From the NCBI RefSeq assembly GCF_016907275.1, contig NZ_JAFBBP010000001.1, positions 4,702,001-4,766,000 of the forward strand: a stretch of DNA of 64,000 bases, read 5' to 3'. Under the pieces are notes generated by a model, which ran no database searches, was not told the DNA's origin, and worked only from the letters and a program-made list of their open reading frames with translations. Made by a program: the position numbers and the translations under genes. The first letter of the stretch is position 1, and each line of letters opens with the position of its first letter. Source of the stretch: Micromonospora luteifusca (GTDB taxonomy: Bacteria; Actinomycetota; Actinomycetes; Mycobacteriales; Micromonosporaceae). This document shows positions 38,769 through 47,964 of this stretch, piece after piece.

Positions 38769-39440
38769 TTAGCCGGCGCTGGCTGTGGCCAGCTTGAGGC
38801 TGAAGGCCAGGAAGAGGGCGGCTACCGCGGTGGTGCCACCGGCCGCCAGGCGGCGGCGTTGGCGGAACTGGGCGGCGAGGAAGGTGCCCGCGAAGATCAA
38901 CGCGGTCAGGTAGAGCGCGCTGGTCACCTGCGCGATCAGTCCGAGCAGCAGGAACGACAACGCCGGCCAGGCATAGCCGGGGTCGACGAACTGGATGAAG
39001 AACGAGATGAAGAACAGGATCGCCTTCGGGTTCAGCAGGCTGATCACCAGTGCCTTGCGGAACGGGCTGCGCATCGCCGCCGGCTCCGCGGCGTCGATGA
39101 GCCGCGGCGTGCTCGGGTCGTTGCGGTCGCGCCAGCGCCGCACCGCGCCGAGCAGCATGGTCACCCCGACATAACCGAGGTACGCGGCACCGGCGTACTT
39201 GATCACCAGGAACAGCGGCGGGTACGCCTTGAGCAGTGACGCCACCCCGGCCGCGGAGAGGAACATCAGCACCCCGTCGCCGACGAACACGCCACCGGCG
39301 GCCCGGTAGCCGACCGCGACACCCCGTTTCGCCGCGGTGGAGAGCACGAAGAGTGAGTTCGGCCCGGGCAGCAGGATGATGGCCACGGTGCCCAGCACGT
39401 ACGTCCAGATGTCGGTGATCCCCAGCACGCCCGCCATCAT
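38769..39440 (-). CDS. LysE/LeuE-family amino-acid exporter
   Basis: A 223-aa membrane transporter of the LysE/RhtB family with about six helices. Signature segments are AIILLPGPNSLFVLSTAAKRG and, later, ISLLNPKAILFFISFFIQFVDP. ATG 39440 overlaps by one base the stop of the PNPOx-GNAT gene (TGATG), so both form an operon. A second ATG follows directly and could also serve. The substrate is not defined by sequence; leucine-type or lysine-type amino acids are usual. Confidence 0.9.
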   Translation of the reverse strand: MMAGVLGITDIWTYVLGTVAIILLPGPNSLFVLSTAAKRGVAVGYRAAGGVFVGDGVLMFLSAAGVASLLKAYPPLFLVIKYAGAAYLGYVGVTMLLGAVRRWRDRNDPSTPRLIDAAEPAAMRSPFRKALVISLLNPKAILFFISFFIQFVDPGYAWPALSFLLLGLIAQVTSALYLTALIFAGTFLAAQFRQRRRLAAGGTTAVAALFLAFSLKLATASAG

Positions 39441-40681
39441 CACGCCACCGGTGCCGTCCGCAGAAGTCCTTCTCGCAGCCTGGCCTGTGCGTTCGGCCAC
39501 TCGTCGACGGTCATCGCGTACTGCACGGTGTCCCGCCAGGAGCCGTCCGGGCGTTGCCGGTGCATCCGCAGCACCCCTTCCCGGGTCGCGCCGAGCCGTT
39601 CGATGGCCGCCTGGGAGCGAACGTTGCGGATGTCGGTGTGCCAGGCGACCCGTACCGCGCCCAGGTCGTCGAAGGCCCGGCTGAGCAGCAACAACTTCGC
39701 CTCGGTGTTGATCCCGGTACGCCACCAGGGTCGGCCGAGGAAGGTGTGTCCGATCGCCACCGCCCGCCGCTCCGGGTCGATGTCGTAGTAGGAGGTGCTG
39801 CCCACCACCGCCCCGGTCGCCGCGCACCGCTGCACCCAGGCCACCCGCTCGCCCCGGTGCTGGGCAGCCAGGGCGGTGCCGATCACCTCGGCGGTACCGG
39901 CGGGAGCGGTGGGCAACGCGGCGCTGAGGTGTCGCCACACCTCCGCGTCGGCCGTGGCGGTGTGCAACTCGTCGGCGTGCGCCAACTCCAGCGGCTCCAG
40001 CCGGACGTGCTCGCCGTGCAGTGACACCGGCTCGTGCCAGGGCGTGCGGGGCGTCCGCAGGTACGCCGGCAGCGGCGCGGTGACCCCGGCGTCCGGCTCG
40101 GGTGCCCCGGCGGTCAGTCGTAGCGGCAGCACGCCGGCCCAGTGCGGCAGGTGCAGGTCGGCCTCGTCCTCGCGGACCCCGCCGGTGCGGGCCCGGACGG
40201 ACACCTCGCGCAGTGGCAGCGCCAGTACGGCCGTCTCGGCCAGCTCGCGGCGGCTCGGCGGACGGGTGGCGGTGCTGCGTCCCGCGCCGACCTTCTCGAC
40301 CAGCGCGGTGAGCATGGCGAGCTTCTCCCGCTCGTCGGTGACCAGTCGGGCGGTGCCGAGCGCGACGACCGAGCGGTAGTTGGCGCTGTGGTGGAACTGG
40401 GAGCGGGCGTAGACCAGCCCGTCGAGCAGGGTCACCGCGACGCAGACCGGCAGCCCCTCGCCCCGGGCCGCGAGCAGCGGACGACTGCCGGTGGATCCGT
40501 GCAGGTAGAGCGTGTCACCGATGCGGACGTGCAGGGTGGGCAGCACCCGTGGCTGGCCGTCGACGGTGAAGCTGAGCGCACAGTCGTACGCCTCGTCGAG
40601 CACCGCGTGAGCGGCCGCCCGGTCGTAGCTCATCTTGTCGCGCGACCGGTTGGGTGTGGTCCGGGCGGTGGGTGGGTACAT
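39440..40681 (-). CDS. PNPOx-like / GNAT acetyltransferase fusion protein
   Basis: A 413-aa two-domain protein. Residues about 20-180 resemble the pyridoxamine 5'-phosphate oxidase-like split-barrel FMN or haem-binding domain (ALSFTVDGQPRVLPTLHVRIGDTLYLHGS; NYRSVVALGTARLVTD). Residues about 225-410 are a GNAT N-acetyltransferase of the RimJ/RimL type (VRLEPLELAHADELH; GHTFLGRPWWRTGINTEAKLLLLSRAFDDLG). The start at 40681 has AAAGGGG before it; an internal ATG (MSYDRA) is possible. It is divergent from a MocR-type regulator with a shared operator and coupled to a LysE exporter, suggesting a metabolite modification and export unit. Confidence 0.85.
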   Translation of the reverse strand: MYPPTARTTPNRSRDKMSYDRAAAHAVLDEAYDCALSFTVDGQPRVLPTLHVRIGDTLYLHGSTGSRPLLAARGEGLPVCVAVTLLDGLVYARSQFHHSANYRSVVALGTARLVTDEREKLAMLTALVEKVGAGRSTATRPPSRRELAETAVLALPLREVSVRARTGGVREDEADLHLPHWAGVLPLRLTAGAPEPDAGVTAPLPAYLRTPRTPWHEPVSLHGEHVRLEPLELAHADELHTATADAEVWRHLSAALPTAPAGTAEVIGTALAAQHRGERVAWVQRCAATGAVVGSTSYYDIDPERRAVAIGHTFLGRPWWRTGINTEAKLLLLSRAFDDLGAVRVAWHTDIRNVRSQAAIERLGATREGVLRMHRQRPDGSWRDTVQYAMTVDEWPNAQARLREGLLRTAPVA

Positions 40682-40693
40682 GCTCGCCCCTTT

Positions 40694-40725
40694 GTGCTAG
40701 TACAATCTCCTGATTGTGTCAGCAC
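40694..40725. promoter_or_regulatory. Two-part palindromic operator in the MocR divergent promoter
   Basis: GTGCT-agt-ACAAT-ctcctg-ATTGT-gtc-AGCAC is a perfect 32-bp interrupted palindrome. It covers TACAAT, a good -10 for the rightward gene, and includes the GTG start (40716) of that gene. The regulator probably binds here to control both itself and the leftward operon. Confidence 0.7.
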
Positions 40726-42056
40726 GCTATCAGCTCACCGGTACGACGGCCGTCCAGATTTCGGCCAGCATCGAGTCAGGCATCCGTACGGGCGCCCTGT
40801 CACCGGGGGCCGCCCTGCCTCCCGTGCGGGCACTCGCCGCCGAGCTGGGCGTCAGCCCCGCCACCGTGGCCCGCGCCTACCAGGAGCTGCGCCAACGCGG
40901 CCTGCTCGCCACGGCCGGCCGGCACGGCACCCGGGTACGCCCCCGCCCCCCGGTGGCCGCCCGACGCTCCGCGCTGCGACCCCCACCGTTGCCCGGTGCC
41001 CGAGACCTGTCCGGGGGCGAGCCCGACCCCCGGCTGCTCCCCCCGCTCGGCCCGCACCTGGCGGCGCTCGCCGCCCACACCGGCCCGTCGATCGGCTACT
41101 CCGACGCCGGGGTGCTGCCCGAGTTGGCCGAGGTGGCCCGCGCCCGGCTGGGCGCCGACGGCGTACCGGCGGGGGAGCTGACCCTCACCGGCGGCGCGCT
41201 GGACGGCATCGAGCGGCTGCTCGGCGCACACCTGCGCCCCGGGGACGCGGTGGCGGTGGAGGACCCGGGCTGGGCCAACCTGCTCGACCTGGTCGCCGCG
41301 CTGGGGCTGCGCCCGATCGGCGTACCGCTCGACGACGAGGGTCCGCTGGTGGCTGGGGTGGCCGCCGCGCTCGACGCCGGCGCACGGGCGCTGGTGGTCA
41401 CCAGCCGGGCGCAGAACCCGACCGGCGCCGCCGTCTCGGCTGCCCGCGCCGAGGCGCTGCGGGCGCTGCTCGCCGGGCGGCGGGACCTGCTGGTGATCGA
41501 GGACGACCACGCCGCCGAGCTGGCCCGGGTACCCCTGCACCCGCTGGCCGGGGCGACCGGGAGCTGGGCCTTCGTCCGCTCGGTGAGCAAGCCCTTCGGC
41601 CCGGACCTGCGGATGGCGGTGCTGGTCGGCGACGAGACCACGGTGGCCCGGGTGACCGGCCGTACGCGGGTCGGTGCCGGTTGGGTCTCCACCGTGCTGC
41701 AGCGGTTGGTCCTCGCTCTCTGGCAGGACCCGACGGTCACCGAGTTGGTGCAGCGGGCGGCGCAGAGCTACGAGCAGCGGCGCGACGGGCTGCTGGCCGC
41801 GCTGGCCGAGCACGGCCTGACCGCGCACGGCCGCAGCGGCATCAACATCTGGCTGCCGGTGGCGGACGAGACCAGCACGGTCACCGCGTTGCGGGACGCC
41901 GGCTGGGCGGTGGCCCCCGGCGCCCTCTACCGGATCGCCGCGCCACCCGCCCTCCGCATCACGGTCAGTCCCCTGAACACGGAGGATCTAGCCCCCTTGG
42001 CGGCCGCGCTGGCCCAAGCCGAAAACCCCACCCCACCCCGAGGCTTCCCCACTTAA
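40716..42056 (+). CDS. MocR/PdxR-type regulator (GntR helix-turn-helix plus aminotransferase domain)
   Basis: A 446-aa transcription factor. The N-terminal winged helix is GntR-like (ISASIESGIRTGALSPGAALPPVRALAAELGVSPATVARAYQELRQRGLL, residues about 13-65). A fold-type I aminotransferase domain follows with a PLP-binding Lys candidate in SVSKPFGPDLR. Such proteins sense PLP or amino compounds and often act on a divergent gene. The start codon GTG 40716 lies inside a perfect palindrome, ten bases after TACAAT, so the message is probably leaderless or nearly so. The divergent partner is a PNPOx-GNAT fusion, but the sensed ligand cannot be named. Confidence 0.88.
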   Translation: MSARYQLTGTTAVQISASIESGIRTGALSPGAALPPVRALAAELGVSPATVARAYQELRQRGLLATAGRHGTRVRPRPPVAARRSALRPPPLPGARDLSGGEPDPRLLPPLGPHLAALAAHTGPSIGYSDAGVLPELAEVARARLGADGVPAGELTLTGGALDGIERLLGAHLRPGDAVAVEDPGWANLLDLVAALGLRPIGVPLDDEGPLVAGVAAALDAGARALVVTSRAQNPTGAAVSAARAEALRALLAGRRDLLVIEDDHAAELARVPLHPLAGATGSWAFVRSVSKPFGPDLRMAVLVGDETTVARVTGRTRVGAGWVSTVLQRLVLALWQDPTVTELVQRAAQSYEQRRDGLLAALAEHGLTAHGRSGINIWLPVADETSTVTALRDAGWAVAPGALYRIAAPPALRITVSPLNTEDLAPLAAALAQAENPTPPRGFPT

Positions 42057-43208: not shown

Positions 43209-44621
43209 TCAGACGATGCTGTTGAAGCCGTTCCAGCCGCTGCCGATCTGCTTGCTGGCGGAGTAGGGGACGCCGTTGTCGCGGACGAAGTTGTTCGCGT
43301 ACAGCAGCAGGGTGCCGTCGGTCTTGCGGCCGACGAGGTCGGTGAAGCCGTCACCGGTCACATCGGCGCCGACCAGGGTGTCGAAGCCGTTCCAGCCGCT
43401 GCCGATCTGCTTGCTGGCGGAGTAGGGGACGCCGTTGTCGCGGACGAAGTTGTTCGCGTACAGCAGCAGGGTGCCGTCGGTCTTGCGGCCGACGAGGTCG
43501 GTGAAGCCGTCACCGGTCACATCGGCGCCGACCAGGGTGTCGAAGCCGTTCCAGCCGCTGCCGATCTGTCGCGCCGACGCGCTGCTGTACGGGGTGCCGT
43601 TGTCCCGTTCGATGTTGTTCGGGTACAGCCAGAGGGTGCCGTCGGTCTTGCGGGCGACCAGGTCGGTGTAGCCGTCGCCGGTCACGTCCGCGCCGACGAT
43701 CCGGTCGAAGTTGCCCCAGCCGCTCCCGATCTGCCGCGCCGAGGAACTGCTGTACGGCACGCCGTCGTCGCGGACAATGTTGTTCGGGTACAGGAGCATG
43801 CTGCCATCCGGCTTCACGAGGAGTAGGTCGGTGAAGCCGTCACCGGTGGCGTCGGCGTTGACGATCCGGTCGGAGTCGCCCCAGCCGCTGCCGATCTGTC
43901 GCGCCGACGCGCTGCTGTACGGGGTGCCGTTGTCCCGTTCGATGTTGTTCGCGTACAGCCAGAGGGTGCCGTCGGTCTTGCGGGCCACCAGGTCGTGGTA
44001 GCTGTCGCCGGTCACGTCTGCGACCCCGGGGTCCTTCTCCGGAGTCTGGCCGCTGGTGGTGATGTTCTTGTAGCGCCGTGCGACGTAGTTGCTCGCCGGG
44101 TGCGAATCGATGAGACCGTCCCCGCCGCCGCTCAGGGTCTCCGTGGCCATCTTCACCGGCGTCGAACCGAAGGCGTAATACTCGAATGTGCCCGTGGACT
44201 GGTTGGTCCAGCGTTTGAAGAGGATGACGTGCTCGCTCGCGGAGTTCAGGATGTCGCCCGGCTGGAGGTCGCTCTTACTGATCTGCGTCGACACCGTGTA
44301 CATGTTGTAGGTCGTCTTCGACGTCGAGAGGTGCCAGGCCATCGAGACGAACCCCGAGCAGTCCCTGCGGTAGTTCTTGCCGTTCTCGTCGGGAAAGTAG
44401 CCGCTCTGGCTGTAATTGATGCTTCCGCGATTGTCGTACCAGTACCGGGCGCGACTGAGCACCTCGGTCGGACTGATCGACCCGCCCACGCTCGATGCGG
44501 CGAAGGCGGCCTCGGGAGTGCTTGCCAGCACGGTGGCGACACCCCCGGAGAGGCCGGCGCCGGCGGCGAGTGCCACACCGAGCGCCATGGTGGTCAGACG
44601 GCGAATAGCACTTCTTTGCAT
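43209..44621 (-). CDS. Secreted NlpC/P60-like protein with five FG-GAP-type repeats
   Basis: A 470-aa exported protein. The signal peptide ends near EAAFA. A cysteine-peptidase-like domain follows, with the candidate nucleophile in RRDCSGFVSMAWHL and a His in SEHVILFKRW, as in NlpC/P60 or amidase folds that act on peptidoglycan. Then come five tandem FG-GAP/VCBS-type units of 53-55 residues, each with the acidic calcium-type motif D(V/A)TGD(G/S)xxDL. The last two units are encoded by an exact 159-bp tandem duplication. The start at 44621 has AAAGGAACACC before it. Located downstream of the GFGWG peptide gene, and possibly a target or part of that system. Confidence 0.8.
   Translation of the reverse strand: MQRSAIRRLTTMALGVALAAGAGLSGGVATVLASTPEAAFAASSVGGSISPTEVLSRARYWYDNRGSINYSQSGYFPDENGKNYRRDCSGFVSMAWHLSTSKTTYNMYTVSTQISKSDLQPGDILNSASEHVILFKRWTNQSTGTFEYYAFGSTPVKMATETLSGGGDGLIDSHPASNYVARRYKNITTSGQTPEKDPGVADVTGDSYHDLVARKTDGTLWLYANNIERDNGTPYSSASARQIGSGWGDSDRIVNADATGDGFTDLLLVKPDGSMLLYPNNIVRDDGVPYSSSSARQIGSGWGNFDRIVGADVTGDGYTDLVARKTDGTLWLYPNNIERDNGTPYSSASARQIGSGWNGFDTLVGADVTGDGFTDLVGRKTDGTLLLYANNFVRDNGVPYSASKQIGSGWNGFDTLVGADVTGDGFTDLVGRKTDGTLLLYANNFVRDNGVPYSASKQIGSGWNGFNSIV
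43224..43541. repeat. Exact 159-bp tandem duplication
   Basis: Bases 43224-43382 and 43383-43541 are identical by direct comparison and encode FG-GAP-type units four and five. The remaining units are diverged. This indicates recent unequal crossing over or gene conversion. Confidence 0.9.
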
Positions 44622-44668
44622 GGTGTTCCTTTCGGTTTCTGTCCTATTTTCAGGCAAGTTTGTTCGGC

Positions 44669-44687
44669 CACCGAGTCGTGATCGGTG
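44669..44687. repeat. Hairpin CACCGA-N7-TCGGTG
   Basis: A perfect 6-bp inverted repeat in the 105-nt space between the 86-aa gene and the NlpC/P60 gene. It could reduce read-through or be an operator for the downstream gene. No T-run follows on the minus strand. Confidence 0.35.
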
Positions 44688-44726
44688 ACAGGAGCGTCGA
44701 GAAATTAGGGAAAATCGTGCTGTGGG

Positions 44727-44987
44727 TCAGATGATTCGCCACGAGTAGAGCAGGGCAGTGCTGGCGATCGTCTTGTCGACAACGTGACGCAAGGTGTCGG
44801 CGGCCTCCGTCGGGTCGTCGGTGTCGACAAACGCCAGGATGTCGGCGCTGTCTGGGCCGGCGCGGACTCGTAGGTGCTCTACGCCACTTCCGGCCAGGGC
44901 GTGCACGTGGAGCAGATCTCGCAGTTCCGCAGGGCCGATGGCTGTCGTCGAGGTGAGCGGGGCGATGCGGATGTACGTCGCGATCAT
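44727..44987 (-). CDS. Hypothetical protein, 86 aa, in the peptide operon
   Basis: A small soluble protein (MIATYIRIAPLTSTTAIGP, then LRDLLHVHALAGSGVEHLRVRAGPDSADILAFVDTDDPTEAADTLRHV, ending LLYSWRII). The alternating strands and helices suggest a ferredoxin-like fold, but no family is recognised. ATG 44987 overlaps by one base the stop of the secreted peptide gene (TGATG), so the two are made together. Its conserved-looking design beside a peptide precursor suggests a role in maturation, immunity or sensing; this is inference only. Confidence 0.6.
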   Translation of the reverse strand: MIATYIRIAPLTSTTAIGPAELRDLLHVHALAGSGVEHLRVRAGPDSADILAFVDTDDPTEAADTLRHVVDKTIASTALLYSWRII

Positions 44988-45205
44988 CAGAGCATTCCGG
45001 CTGGATTGACCGGTGCTGGTGCACCCCAGCCAAACCCATCGGCCACAAGTTGGACAGGTGACGTTTCCTGCGGAGGGCTGCCCCATCCGAAGCCGTCGGC
45101 GAGTGCCACCGTCGCGCCCGGCCCCGTGCTCAGGATGATTGCCAGACCGACGACGAGGAGAGCGAACGCCGCAAGACGGTAATTGGAATTGATGAACCGG
45201 AACAT
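44987..45205 (-). CDS. Secreted peptide precursor with two ADGFGWG(S/A)P repeats
   Basis: A 72-aa precursor. An N-terminal signal peptide (basic RFINSNYR, then the hydrophobic core LAAFALLVVGLAIILS) ends at a good signal-peptidase site, A34-L-A36, before D37. The remaining 36 residues contain ADGFGWGSP at 36-44 and ADGFGWGAP at 55-63, spaced by a Pro/Gln/Thr linker and ending NPAGML. The seven-residue core is the same in both repeats, while five of seven codons differ in the third base. ATG 45205 has GAGAGAAG upstream. It is divergent from a TrmB/LuxR-type regulator. Likely an exported signal or bioactive peptide; no family is known to me. Confidence 0.65.
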   Translation of the reverse strand: MFRFINSNYRLAAFALLVVGLAIILSTGPGATVALADGFGWGSPPQETSPVQLVADGFGWGAPAPVNPAGML

Positions 45206-45328
45206 GCGATCAACTTCTCTCTGTGTATGGCATTCCGCTGTCGGTTTGGATCTAGACGCTCTGTGGTCGATGTTTCCGCCGTGAATTAAGCATCGCGATT
45301 CCACCCCGCCTTGTCACCGGGCGCGGCC

Positions 45329-45359
45329 TGGCGTGACCCCGCCCGGCGGGACCACGCCA
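45329..45359. promoter_or_regulatory. 31-bp palindrome in the divergent promoter of the peptide and regulator genes
   Basis: The 15-base arms TGGCGTGACCCCGCC (45329-45343) and GGCGGGACCACGCCA (45345-45359) pair at 13 of 15 positions around one base. It lies between the divergent starts (45205 and 45435). A LuxR-type dimer operator is the natural guess. Confidence 0.6.
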
Positions 45360-45434
45360 GTTGCTCGGCCGGGTCCACGAAAACGATCAGTGCCCGGCAG
45401 AATGGCGGGCGTTGGTCCTACTCGGGGAGGGGCT

Positions 45435-46406
45435 ATGTTCGATTTGCTCGGGTTGTCCGCGCAGCACGAGAGTGTCTACCGCGCCATGTTGCAGCGTCCT
45501 GATCTGAACATCGCCGGGCTCTCTGCTCACCTCGGTGTGGAGCCCGGGGAGGTGCATGCGGCACTGGACGTGCTGGCCGACCTCGCGCTCATCCGGCTCG
45601 ACCCGGAGGGTGATCACGCTCGACCGGTGCGCCCGCAGGCCGGGCTGACGGCGCTTCTGACCAAGGTGGAGGCGGAGGTCGCGGTCCGGCAGAAACACGT
45701 CGAGGCGACCAAGGCCGCCATCGCCGCCATCGCGGCCGCCCACGACGACTACCACCAGGGGGCGGAAGGCCGGGTGCTCGAAGGAATCGACAGCGTACGA
45801 GACCGGCTGGCCGAGTTGGCCCACACCGCACGCGCCGAATGCCTCTCCTTCAACACCGGCGGCGCGCAGAGCCCGGACACCTTGGAGGCCGAGGCGCCGC
45901 TTGACCAGCAGGCGTTGCAACGCGGTGTCCAGATCCGCAACGTGTATCAGGACAGCTTCCGCAACGACCCCGGCACCCTCGCGCACGCCCGCTGGTTGGC
46001 GGGGCTCGGAGGGCAGTCACGCACCACGCCGACGCTGCCGATGCGCCTGGTCATCGTTGATCGGGGCATCGCACTCGTGCCCATCGATCCGACCAACCCG
46101 CGGCGAGGTGCACTGGAACTGCACAGCCACGGGATCGTCGCCGGGCTGATCGCCCTCTTCGAGCAGGTGTGGCAGACCGCAACCCCGTTCGACGGCCAGG
46201 TGACGGCCGACGCGCAGGGTCTCACCCGGCAGGAACGCGAGCTGCTGCGGCTGCTCGCCGCCGGGCACACCGACGAGTCGGCGGCGCGCAAGCTCGCGAT
46301 CTCCCTGCGCAGTGTGCAGCGCATGATGACGTCCCTGACCGAGCGGCTGGGCGCCGCCAGCCGATTCCAGGCCGGCGTGCAGGCGGCCAGTCACGGCTGG
46401 GTATGA
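45435..46406 (+). CDS. TrmB/LuxR-type transcriptional regulator
   Basis: A 323-aa regulator. The N-terminal winged helix (LSAQHESVYRAMLQRPDLNIAGLSAHLGVEPGEVHAALDVLADLALI) is TrmB-like. A central helical and alpha/beta region follows, with a conserved-looking LSFNTGGAQSP segment that may bind a ligand. The C-terminal 60 residues are a LuxR-type helix-turn-helix (LTRQERELLRLLAAGHTDESAARKLAISLRSVQRMMTSLTERLGA). ATG 45435 follows ggggaggggct; the open frame upstream is not used. It is divergent from the GFGWG peptide gene with a palindrome between, and is followed on the same strand by an MFS transporter. It may sense the peptide, but this is unproven. Confidence 0.82.
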   Translation: MFDLLGLSAQHESVYRAMLQRPDLNIAGLSAHLGVEPGEVHAALDVLADLALIRLDPEGDHARPVRPQAGLTALLTKVEAEVAVRQKHVEATKAAIAAIAAAHDDYHQGAEGRVLEGIDSVRDRLAELAHTARAECLSFNTGGAQSPDTLEAEAPLDQQALQRGVQIRNVYQDSFRNDPGTLAHARWLAGLGGQSRTTPTLPMRLVIVDRGIALVPIDPTNPRRGALELHSHGIVAGLIALFEQVWQTATPFDGQVTADAQGLTRQERELLRLLAAGHTDESAARKLAISLRSVQRMMTSLTERLGAASRFQAGVQAASHGWV

Positions 46407-46560
46407 GGAAGAGACCGCGTGGCCGACCCAGCCCGATGAGGTGGAAGCCGCGGCGGCGAGGCCCGAGAAACGGGCAACGGATCGGTTGACGGCAAAACCG
46501 GTCTTCGCTGGTCGGCGCGGGTGCGCGAGGATGGGGCCACCCCTTTGGACAGGAGCGCCG

Positions 46561-47964
46561 ATGGCCACCGACCTGACCGCGCCGCGCACGGCAGCCAGCC
46601 CCGATGTCACGGCGATCCAGCGGCGTACCCTGCGGCTGCTCTTCACCACCCAGATCATCGGTGGCGTCGGCGTGACCATCGGCATCGCCGTGGGTGCGCT
46701 GCTCGCGGCACGCATCGCCGGCACCGCGGCGGCCGGTGTCGCGCAGAGTGCCGGGGTGGTCGGTGCGGCGCTGCTCGCCGTCCCGGTCACCTGGATCATG
46801 GCGCGGCACGGTCGCCGGCCGGGCCTGGTGCTGGCGTACGCGGTCGGCGCCGTCGGCGGCGTGCTGGTGGTGCTGGCCGCGGCCACCCGCTGGGTGCCGC
46901 TGCTCTTCCTCGGCATGCTGCTCTTCGGCGGGGGCACCGCCGCGAACCTGCAGGCCCGCTACACGGCGGTGGACCTCGCCGAGCCGGCCCGACGAGGGCG
47001 GCAGCTCTCCCTGATCGTCTGGGCCACCACCATCGGTGCGGTGGCCGCGCCGAACTTCGCCGCGTTGGCCGACCGGGTCACCACCGGCTGGGGGCTGCCT
47101 CCGCTGGCCGGTCCGTTCGCGTTCAGCGCGGTGGCGTTCGTGCTGGCTGCCGTCGTACTCCTGGGGTTGCTCCGGCCCGACCCGCTGCTCACCGCGCGGC
47201 GGCTCGCGGCGGCCGGGGCGCCCGTTGCCAACCTGCCGCCGGCCGCCGATACGACGTCGACCGCCGTGGCGGCCGAGGCGCCGGCGGGCGGTGGCCCGGC
47301 CGTTGGTGGTGCGGTGCCGGCAGCCGCGCCGGTCGAGGTGCGCGCGCCGCGCGGCGCCGGGATGCGTGCGGCCTGGTCTGTGGTACGCGGACAGCCCGCC
47401 GCTCGACTCGGCATCGCCGCCGTGGCCGTGGGTCACCTGGTGATGGTGGCGGTGATGGCGATGACCCCGGTCCGGCTCGGTGAGTCGCACGCCGACGCCG
47501 ACGTGCTGCGGCTGGTCGGCATCGTGCTGAGCCTGCACATCGCCGGCATGTACGCGTTCTCGCCGGTGGTCGGTTGGCTCACCGACCGCCTCGGTCGGCG
47601 GGCGGTGATCCTCGGTGGGGTCGGGCTGCTGCTGGCCGCCTGCGCGGTCGCCGGCACCGCCGGGCACCACACACCCCGGCTCTCGGTGGGTCTGGTCCTG
47701 CTCGGGCTGGGTTGGTCGGGGACGATGGTGGCCGGCTCGACACTGCTGTCCGAGTCGGTGCCGGCCGGTGTGCGGCCGAGCGTCCAGGGGCTGTCCGACC
47801 TGATCATGGGACTGGCCGGGACCGGTGCCGCCATGGTCAGCGGGTTTGTCATGCAGTTCGCCGGTTATCCCGTGCTCACCCTGCTCGCGGCGGTCGCGGC
47901 GGTGCCCCTGGTGGCGCTAGCGTTGCGCCCGGTGCCGACCGGGGCACCGGACGAGGAGGGCTGA
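46561..47964 (+). CDS. MFS transporter
   Basis: A 467-aa membrane protein with about 12 helices, an MFS motif after helix 2 (ARHGRRPGLVLAYAVG) and a second after the central loop (GWLTDRLGRRAVILGG). The central loop (about residues 205-260) is long and Ala/Pro-rich. ATG 46561 is preceded by caggagcgccg; the open frame extends upstream to 46441 without protein-like sequence. The substrate is unknown. It follows the TrmB/LuxR regulator by 154 nt on the same strand and could export a compound controlled by it, although it also directly precedes the DUF3046-recA backbone. Confidence 0.85.
   Translation: MATDLTAPRTAASPDVTAIQRRTLRLLFTTQIIGGVGVTIGIAVGALLAARIAGTAAAGVAQSAGVVGAALLAVPVTWIMARHGRRPGLVLAYAVGAVGGVLVVLAAATRWVPLLFLGMLLFGGGTAANLQARYTAVDLAEPARRGRQLSLIVWATTIGAVAAPNFAALADRVTTGWGLPPLAGPFAFSAVAFVLAAVVLLGLLRPDPLLTARRLAAAGAPVANLPPAADTTSTAVAAEAPAGGGPAVGGAVPAAAPVEVRAPRGAGMRAAWSVVRGQPAARLGIAAVAVGHLVMVAVMAMTPVRLGESHADADVLRLVGIVLSLHIAGMYAFSPVVGWLTDRLGRRAVILGGVGLLLAACAVAGTAGHHTPRLSVGLVLLGLGWSGTMVAGSTLLSESVPAGVRPSVQGLSDLIMGLAGTGAAMVSGFVMQFAGYPVLTLLAAVAAVPLVALALRPVPTGAPDEEG

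Follow-up and report, generated by a model that had tools for sequence, protein, structure and literature searches.

A putative peptide-pheromone cassette with a TrmB/LuxR-type regulator in Micromonospora luteifusca and other Actinobacteria

Introduction

Peptide pheromones with intracellular receptors are a staple of Bacillota. In streptococci, ComR with the tryptophan-rich peptide XIP, or ComDE, drives lysins with a CHAP domain. The archaeal sugar regulators TrmB and TrmBL2 are not known to have a linked peptide and partner. The precursors of RRNPPA systems may carry several pheromone copies, according to an excerpt of PMC11343458. For Actinobacteria, an excerpt of PMC4748050 presents γ-butyrolactones and cyclic or modified peptides as signals; a family of intracellular peptide receptors is described for these bacteria neither in that excerpt nor in the open-licence literature searched. 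Here we analyzed a locus within a stretch of 64,000 nucleotides (hereafter the window; contig NZ_JAFBBP010000001.1, positions 4,702,001 to 4,766,000) of the 7.16-Mb single-contig genome of Micromonospora luteifusca. It encodes a short precursor with a repeated tryptophan motif, a small partner protein, a variable output protein and a divergently transcribed regulator. We conclude that peptide, partner and regulator probably constitute a modular, self-contained cassette of Actinobacteria for a peptide pheromone and its intracellular receptor. No description of the cassette or its motifs was found in the open-licence papers searched.

Results

The peptide precursor P0001 (72 amino acids; 44987..45205, minus strand) contains ADGFGWG twice, and a pattern search placed the two ADGFGW-encoding copies at 45083-45100 and 45026-45043 on the same strand. 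The start codon of the following gene, which encodes the partner P0005 (86 amino acids; 44727..44987, minus strand), lies within the stop codon of P0001 in a TGATG overlap. Downstream on this strand, the output gene P0003 (43209..44621) encodes a secreted, NlpC/P60-like protein of 470 amino acids. In the opposite direction, the gene for the regulator P0002 (323 amino acids; 45435..46406, plus strand), the proposed peptide receptor, is transcribed. The preliminary description of this DNA had read the doubled motif and the TGATG coupling from the open reading frames (ORFs), and translation, pattern positions and sequence bear out both; its five FG-GAP-type repeats in the output protein reappeared as five FG-GAP_3 stretches in Pfam.

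The surroundings of the regulator were compared at 84 loci, comprising the window, L044, L045, L051 and 80 fetched regions (L105-L184), with regulator identities of 41.5-100%. The high-scoring regulator hits came from draws of 101 genomes of the genus, 300 of the family and 394 of the class; the fetched regions are a part of the hits above the cut-offs, picked mostly by rank, and because of the kinship among the loci the counts are not independent. The partner adjoins the regulator, on either side, within 3 kb in 69 of the 84 loci (within 1.5 kb in 66), and a partner profile match at E < 1e-10 is divergent from the regulator in 59. Of the 300 family genomes, 42 contained matches to the profile, 52 in total; a regulator (E ≤ 1e-50) was at most 3 kb away from 48 of these matches, for two the distance was 6.1 kb, and the remaining two lay elsewhere. 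Three of these last four (L218, L219, L220) have a tryptophan-motif peptide just upstream; the fourth (L217) is preceded by VADGYGAEP, without the tryptophan. At the loci of 28 distant regulator homologues with the same domain order (29-34% identity by tblastn; flanks of 1.5 kb for 8 and 3 kb for 20), neither a partner (0/28) nor the peptide motif was found. The co-conservation of such peptides with the regulator, on which the preliminary description had made its proposal depend, holds for one regulator subfamily and fails for the distant homologues. The 86-amino acid partner is a core element of the cassette.

The partner is linked as tightly as the regulator, and L217-L220 hold a peptide and a partner with no listed regulator within 3 kb. 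Both observations would fit a peptide that is sensed by the partner or by an extracellular protein, the regulator being a co-inherited local activator. However, loci without a recognised peptide (L150, L151, L156-L160, L163) also have a partner next to the regulator, so that the presence of the partner does not need a recognisable peptide, and we consider this explanation unlikely. Irrespective of its role in the proposed pheromone cassette, P0005 was modelled as a ferredoxin-like fold (beta-alpha-beta-beta-alpha-beta; predicted local distance difference test score 88.9, predicted template modeling (TM) score 0.79) with generic structure matches only. Its invariant residues across eight sequences include H38, R40, R42, W83 and R84, its sequence shows no obvious export signal, and its DUF6286 score of 23.8 bits is below the Pfam cut-off of 35.

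An automatic rule found a candidate peptide directly before the partner in 54 of the 69 partner loci, about three of them seemingly spurious (L111, L167 and L169, probably false peptides, were kept in this count and removed before tree labelling). The short ORFs, which usually precede the partner gene, carry one to three copies of the consensus A-[DEG]-G-F-[GE]-W-G. Usually they have a hydrophobic N-terminus, from which alone secretion was judged. Among 69 sequence windows around a tryptophan, which contain a few false or extra tryptophans, glycine stands at position -3 in 62, phenylalanine at -2 in 42, alanine at -5 in 33 and glycine at +1 in 43, and in 19 the precursor ends with the tryptophan or one residue after it. 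Two or three copies with glycine at -3 are present in 12 of the 54 precursors by a strict rule, across several regulator clades. LA, VA or LVA often directly precedes the motif copies and resembles a processing site.

The motif occurs in several variants. [DE]GFGWG is present twice in the window, L045, L105 and L119, and L044 has EGFGWG and QGFGWG. AEGFGWT was found in L112, L113 and L117, ADGFGWN in L146, ADGFDWS in L138 and L140, GGNEWG in L136, L137, L141 and L142, and GG[SA]EW[GA] in L143, L166, L168, L171 and L172. GGFEWA (L125) and DGMTWG (L132) occur twice and GFDWG three times (L147), SLIWD is found in L180 and TLVWD in L175. L152 has GVIGWD twice, which the automatic rule missed.

As controls for the motif served 812 sequences, namely 420 Markov shuffles, 152 far stretches of the same loci and 240 other pieces of the window; a match required the motif in the tail of an ORF of 30-110 amino acids with a hydrophobic N-terminus, divergent from the regulator. 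The strict motif GFGW was found in 19 of the 84 loci versus none of the shuffles, far stretches or window pieces, and G[FY].W in 29 loci versus 0, 1 and 2 of these controls, respectively. For the loosest motif, 39 loci compare with six shuffles, two far stretches and two window pieces. In the same-strand control, the three motifs gave 0, 0 and 2 of 84. The codons of the motif differ at synonymous positions, and the ratio of nonsynonymous to synonymous substitution rates (dN/dS) among four close relatives was 0.26-0.64 for the peptide, indicating a genuine protein that evolves rapidly and keeps its motif. For the regulator, the ratio among these relatives was 0.09-0.21; its closest named relatives are from Micromonospora parastrephiae (90% identity) and M. 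halophytica (79%).

A maximum likelihood tree of the 84 regulators was calculated by a quick search with Shimodaira-Hasegawa-like approximate likelihood ratio support only, and 24 of its 81 inner branches were not resolved. Five motif classes, assigned to 51 labelled rows, required 10 changes on this tree compared to a mean of 24.6 after shuffling, and none of 200 shuffles was as low. The class with glutamate before the tryptophan occupies one side of a branch with a support of 82. Motif class thus follows regulator clade, which demonstrates co-inheritance, is not by itself proof of recognition and is a result favoured by near-copies.

Several further peptides were observed. L242 (G056:C1:452300-456300) has at about 454267 an orphan precursor of the same type, which contains STSLAEGFGWGSPQP; its 4-kb stretch gave no partner with the profile and no regulator by tblastn, and it may be a relic or a signal-only gene. 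Peptides of L174 and L261 contain DGFGWDSV/EGFGWDSV and GGFGWDSV repeats. The modules with GFSWG/GYSWG (L128-L133) face a gene that by its sequence resembles a B12-binding radical-SAM enzyme, suggesting a biosynthetic cluster that the pheromone would control.

The region between the divergent genes contains a 33-bp palindrome, CTGGCGTGACCCCGCCCGGCGGGACCACGCCAG (45328..45360), composed of CTGGCGTGACCCCGCC-C-GGCGGGACCACGCCAG and located 74 bp before the regulator gene. It is kept in close relatives, and in 21 of the 84 loci the sequence before the regulator matches it at 23 or more of the 33 positions, compared to a maximum of 22 in 420 shuffles. Most of the distant clades stay below this match; in L133, which belongs to a more distant clade, TGACGGGATCGCGCC-1-GGCGGGATCCCGTCA stands in a comparable position. 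The M. luteifusca genome contains one other site with at most three mismatches to the arms and core, and the regulator therefore looks dedicated to the palindrome, which we propose as its operator, to which it would bind.

In the predicted structure of P0002, a TrmB-like winged helix is followed by a long helix, a PLD-like sensor domain and a LuxR-type helix-turn-helix (HTH). GerE/LuxR was the sole Pfam family above its cut-off (E = 3.2e-8); the TrmB match was weak (E = 0.018; 15.3 bits versus a cut-off of 25.6). The predicted fold resembles TrmBL2 and TrmB, with good matches for the single domains and TM scores of only 0.33-0.36 for the whole chain, and residues 109-250 match PLD-like and TrmB domains. 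The architecture of winged helix and PLD-like effector domain typical of TrmB is thus present in the predicted fold, and of the TrmB/LuxR label given initially, the LuxR part stands on sequence and the TrmB part on predicted structure. No HxK string is present. A TPR domain was not found in Pfam up to E = 1, and the predicted fold also differs from one; Pfam and fold comparison likewise revealed no autoinducer-binding domain before the LuxR HTH. A LuxR receptor of the acyl-homoserine lactone type was rejected, as residues 109-250 fit PLD-like/TrmB domains. L135 carries a tandem pair of regulator homologues, possibly a duplicated receptor.

Rough gene calling based on the G+C content at third codon positions located the first gene on the peptide strand in 44 of the 59 loci with a divergent partner, and Pfam scans covered 38 of the 44 (the others, L128, L130, L131, L133, L140 and L142, are mostly close relatives of scanned ones). 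At E ≤ 1e-4, FG-GAP repeats were found in 20 of the 38 outputs and a wall-hydrolase domain in 11 (seven CHAP, two M23, two NlpC/P60). The weaker match of the window is excluded from the latter: the NlpC/P60 label originally given to P0003 is weak by sequence alone (E = 0.0027; 18.1 bits versus a cut-off of 23), and the L105 homologue just reaches the cut-off with 23.1 bits. Other outputs are SARP/BTAD proteins (L138, L147), response regulators or proteins with a LuxR HTH (L126, L141, L170), nonribosomal peptide synthetase (NRPS) or AMP-binding proteins (L146, L169) and single cases with TPR, HAD, fibronectin type III or a weak Xre-like match. Five of the 38 (L112, L113, L132, L137, L145) gave no Pfam family. 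Relatives of P0003 keep the position and swap domains, the same FG-GAP repeats being preceded by differing catalytic domains, and of the loci with GGNEWG, which form one clade, L137 has a secreted-looking protein as output and L141 a response regulator. In L261, a SARP-lookalike gene is inserted between peptide and partner, and the regulator is convergent. As the output is swapped while the module stays, the conserved unit consists of peptide, partner and regulator, and the output is exchangeable.

In P0003, the last two FG-GAP repeats (window 43220-43560) are nearly identical in DNA, which points to a recent duplication. In L138 and L140, the SARP-type gene is followed by a gene whose product by eye resembles part of a peptide-modifying (cyclodehydratase-type) pathway.

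A peptide, a small cytosolic protein and a secreted hydrolase give the locus the look of a weapon operon, and the sensor fold of the regulator is that of a sugar-binding domain. The peptide might accordingly be an antimicrobial or wall-active effector with the partner as immunity protein and a regulator that senses something else, for example a wall fragment or a sugar. This we regard as quite unlikely: conservation is limited to about 6-8 residues, after which 19 of the 69 windows end directly, SARPs, response regulators and NRPS genes are found among the outputs as well, and the motif class tracks the regulator.

The regulator gene is followed, 155 bp downstream, by a gene for a major facilitator superfamily (MFS) transporter (46561..47964, plus strand). 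The preliminary description was right about this gene and wrong in counting it as part of the system: a tblastn match (E ≤ 1e-20) was found in 2 of the 84 loci only, the window and L044 of M. parastrephiae; the sequence available after the regulator was at least 504 bp in all 84 loci and at least 1770 bp in 81. The transporter was therefore ruled out as a member. Elsewhere in the window, in 39440-42056, a MocR/GntR-aminotransferase-like gene (40716-42056, plus strand) is divergent from a gene resembling a pyridoxamine-oxidase-like/acetyltransferase fusion (39440-40681, minus strand), both judged from their sequences.

Discussion

Strong co-conservation of peptide, partner and regulator makes the reading as a peptide signal well supported as an inference, and further support comes from the palindrome that is conserved between the two divergent genes. 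Of the system outlined in the preliminary description, the signal thus stood, and the set of parts had to be corrected: the MFS transporter is out, the partner is core and the outputs are interchangeable. Gene structure, co-conservation, motif and palindrome, as well as the folds in the form of predicted models, are directly supported, and from them we infer the following course. The precursor would be exported via Sec, with signal peptidase probably cutting between ALA and DGFGWG, and a further protease cut between VA and DGFGWG would release the second copy, so that short tryptophan-motif peptides would build up outside. A general oligopeptide ATP-binding cassette importer would return the peptides to the cell. 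The M. luteifusca genome has eight SBP_bac_5 oligopeptide-binding genes, none of them in the cassette, which make re-import possible but prove nothing. Inside the cytosol, the peptide would bind to the PLD-like sensor domain of the regulator and alter its action at the palindrome, so that the operon of peptide, partner and output would be switched on in a positive feedback. The role of the ferredoxin-like partner is a guess: it would probably modulate the regulator or act as a carrier that passes the peptide on.

A pheromone is favoured by the repetition and the variable position of the motif, by the pattern of motif class by clade and by the exchangeable outputs. Weighing against it are the TrmB-like sugar domain of the regulator, a few precursors lacking a clear export signal and the above-mentioned partners next to regulators without a recognised peptide. 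It is very unlikely that P0001 is instead a secretion-monitoring arrest peptide, whose tryptophan-containing nascent chain would stall the ribosome until Sec pulls and thereby control translation of the overlapping partner gene: the signal-like N-terminus, the motif near the C-terminus and the TGATG coupling resemble SecM-type leaders as presented in excerpts of PMC7897499 and PMC10987492, but 12 of the 54 precursors hold more than one motif copy, the last copy is 0 to more than 20 residues from the stop, the spacing of peptide and partner genes varies from overlap to more than 50 bp, in L261 another gene separates the two, neither RAPP nor RAGP occurs in the window peptide, and the downstream gene encodes no Sec or YidC component, being the partner followed by varied outputs.

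Taking the pheromone cassette further, we lean towards an undescribed superfamily of one-component peptide quorum-sensing systems in Actinobacteria, in which tryptophan-motif pheromones, TrmB-PLD-LuxR receptors and a ferredoxin-like co-factor stand before wall hydrolases, SARP or LuxR genes or biosynthetic clusters, with private channels set by the peptide sequence. There is a fair chance that the cassette deserves a family name of its own. The data suggest a peptide "language" based on the tryptophan motif that recurs in many soil bacteria and activates enzymes of the cell wall or genes of the antibiotic type. If this is true, pairing a hexapeptide-type key with a single-gene lock would offer direct, cheap, synthetic inducers, and the cognate peptide could activate silent biosynthetic clusters behind the module. 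Candidates are the clusters with NRPS/AMP-binding (L146, L169) or SARP genes (L138, L147) and, by resemblance, L140 and L261. The numerous pairs of motif and receptor would make specificity and cross-talk directly testable.

The cassette is similar to the RRNPPA systems (Rap-Phr, Rgg-SHP, ComR-ComS, PlcR-PapR) in having a short precursor, secreted as judged from hydrophobic N-termini only, beside a cytosolic regulator, and also in the several motif copies. However, the RRNPPA receptor is a TPR protein and the hosts are Bacillota, whereas here the receptor combines TrmB-like and PLD-like domains with a LuxR HTH, a ferredoxin-like partner is conserved and the hosts are Actinobacteria; lacking a TPR receptor, the cassette is not a member of RRNPPA. 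From TrmB and TrmBL2, P0002 differs by the additional C-terminal LuxR-type HTH. With the systems based on γ-butyrolactones and on cyclic or modified peptides it has signalling in Actinobacteria in common, but the peptide is linear and apparently unmodified (a conserved modifying enzyme was not seen) and the receptor is unrelated. SecM-type arrest peptides share the signal-like N-terminus, a motif and a coupled downstream gene, and differ in that the motif here is repeated and movable, with neither RAPP/RAGP nor a downstream Sec component. As in the control of murein hydrolases during streptococcal competence, a peptide signal would act upstream of CHAP-type wall enzymes; in the actinobacterial cassette, however, the gene for the enzyme is located inside the pheromone operon itself, and the receptor has a different fold.

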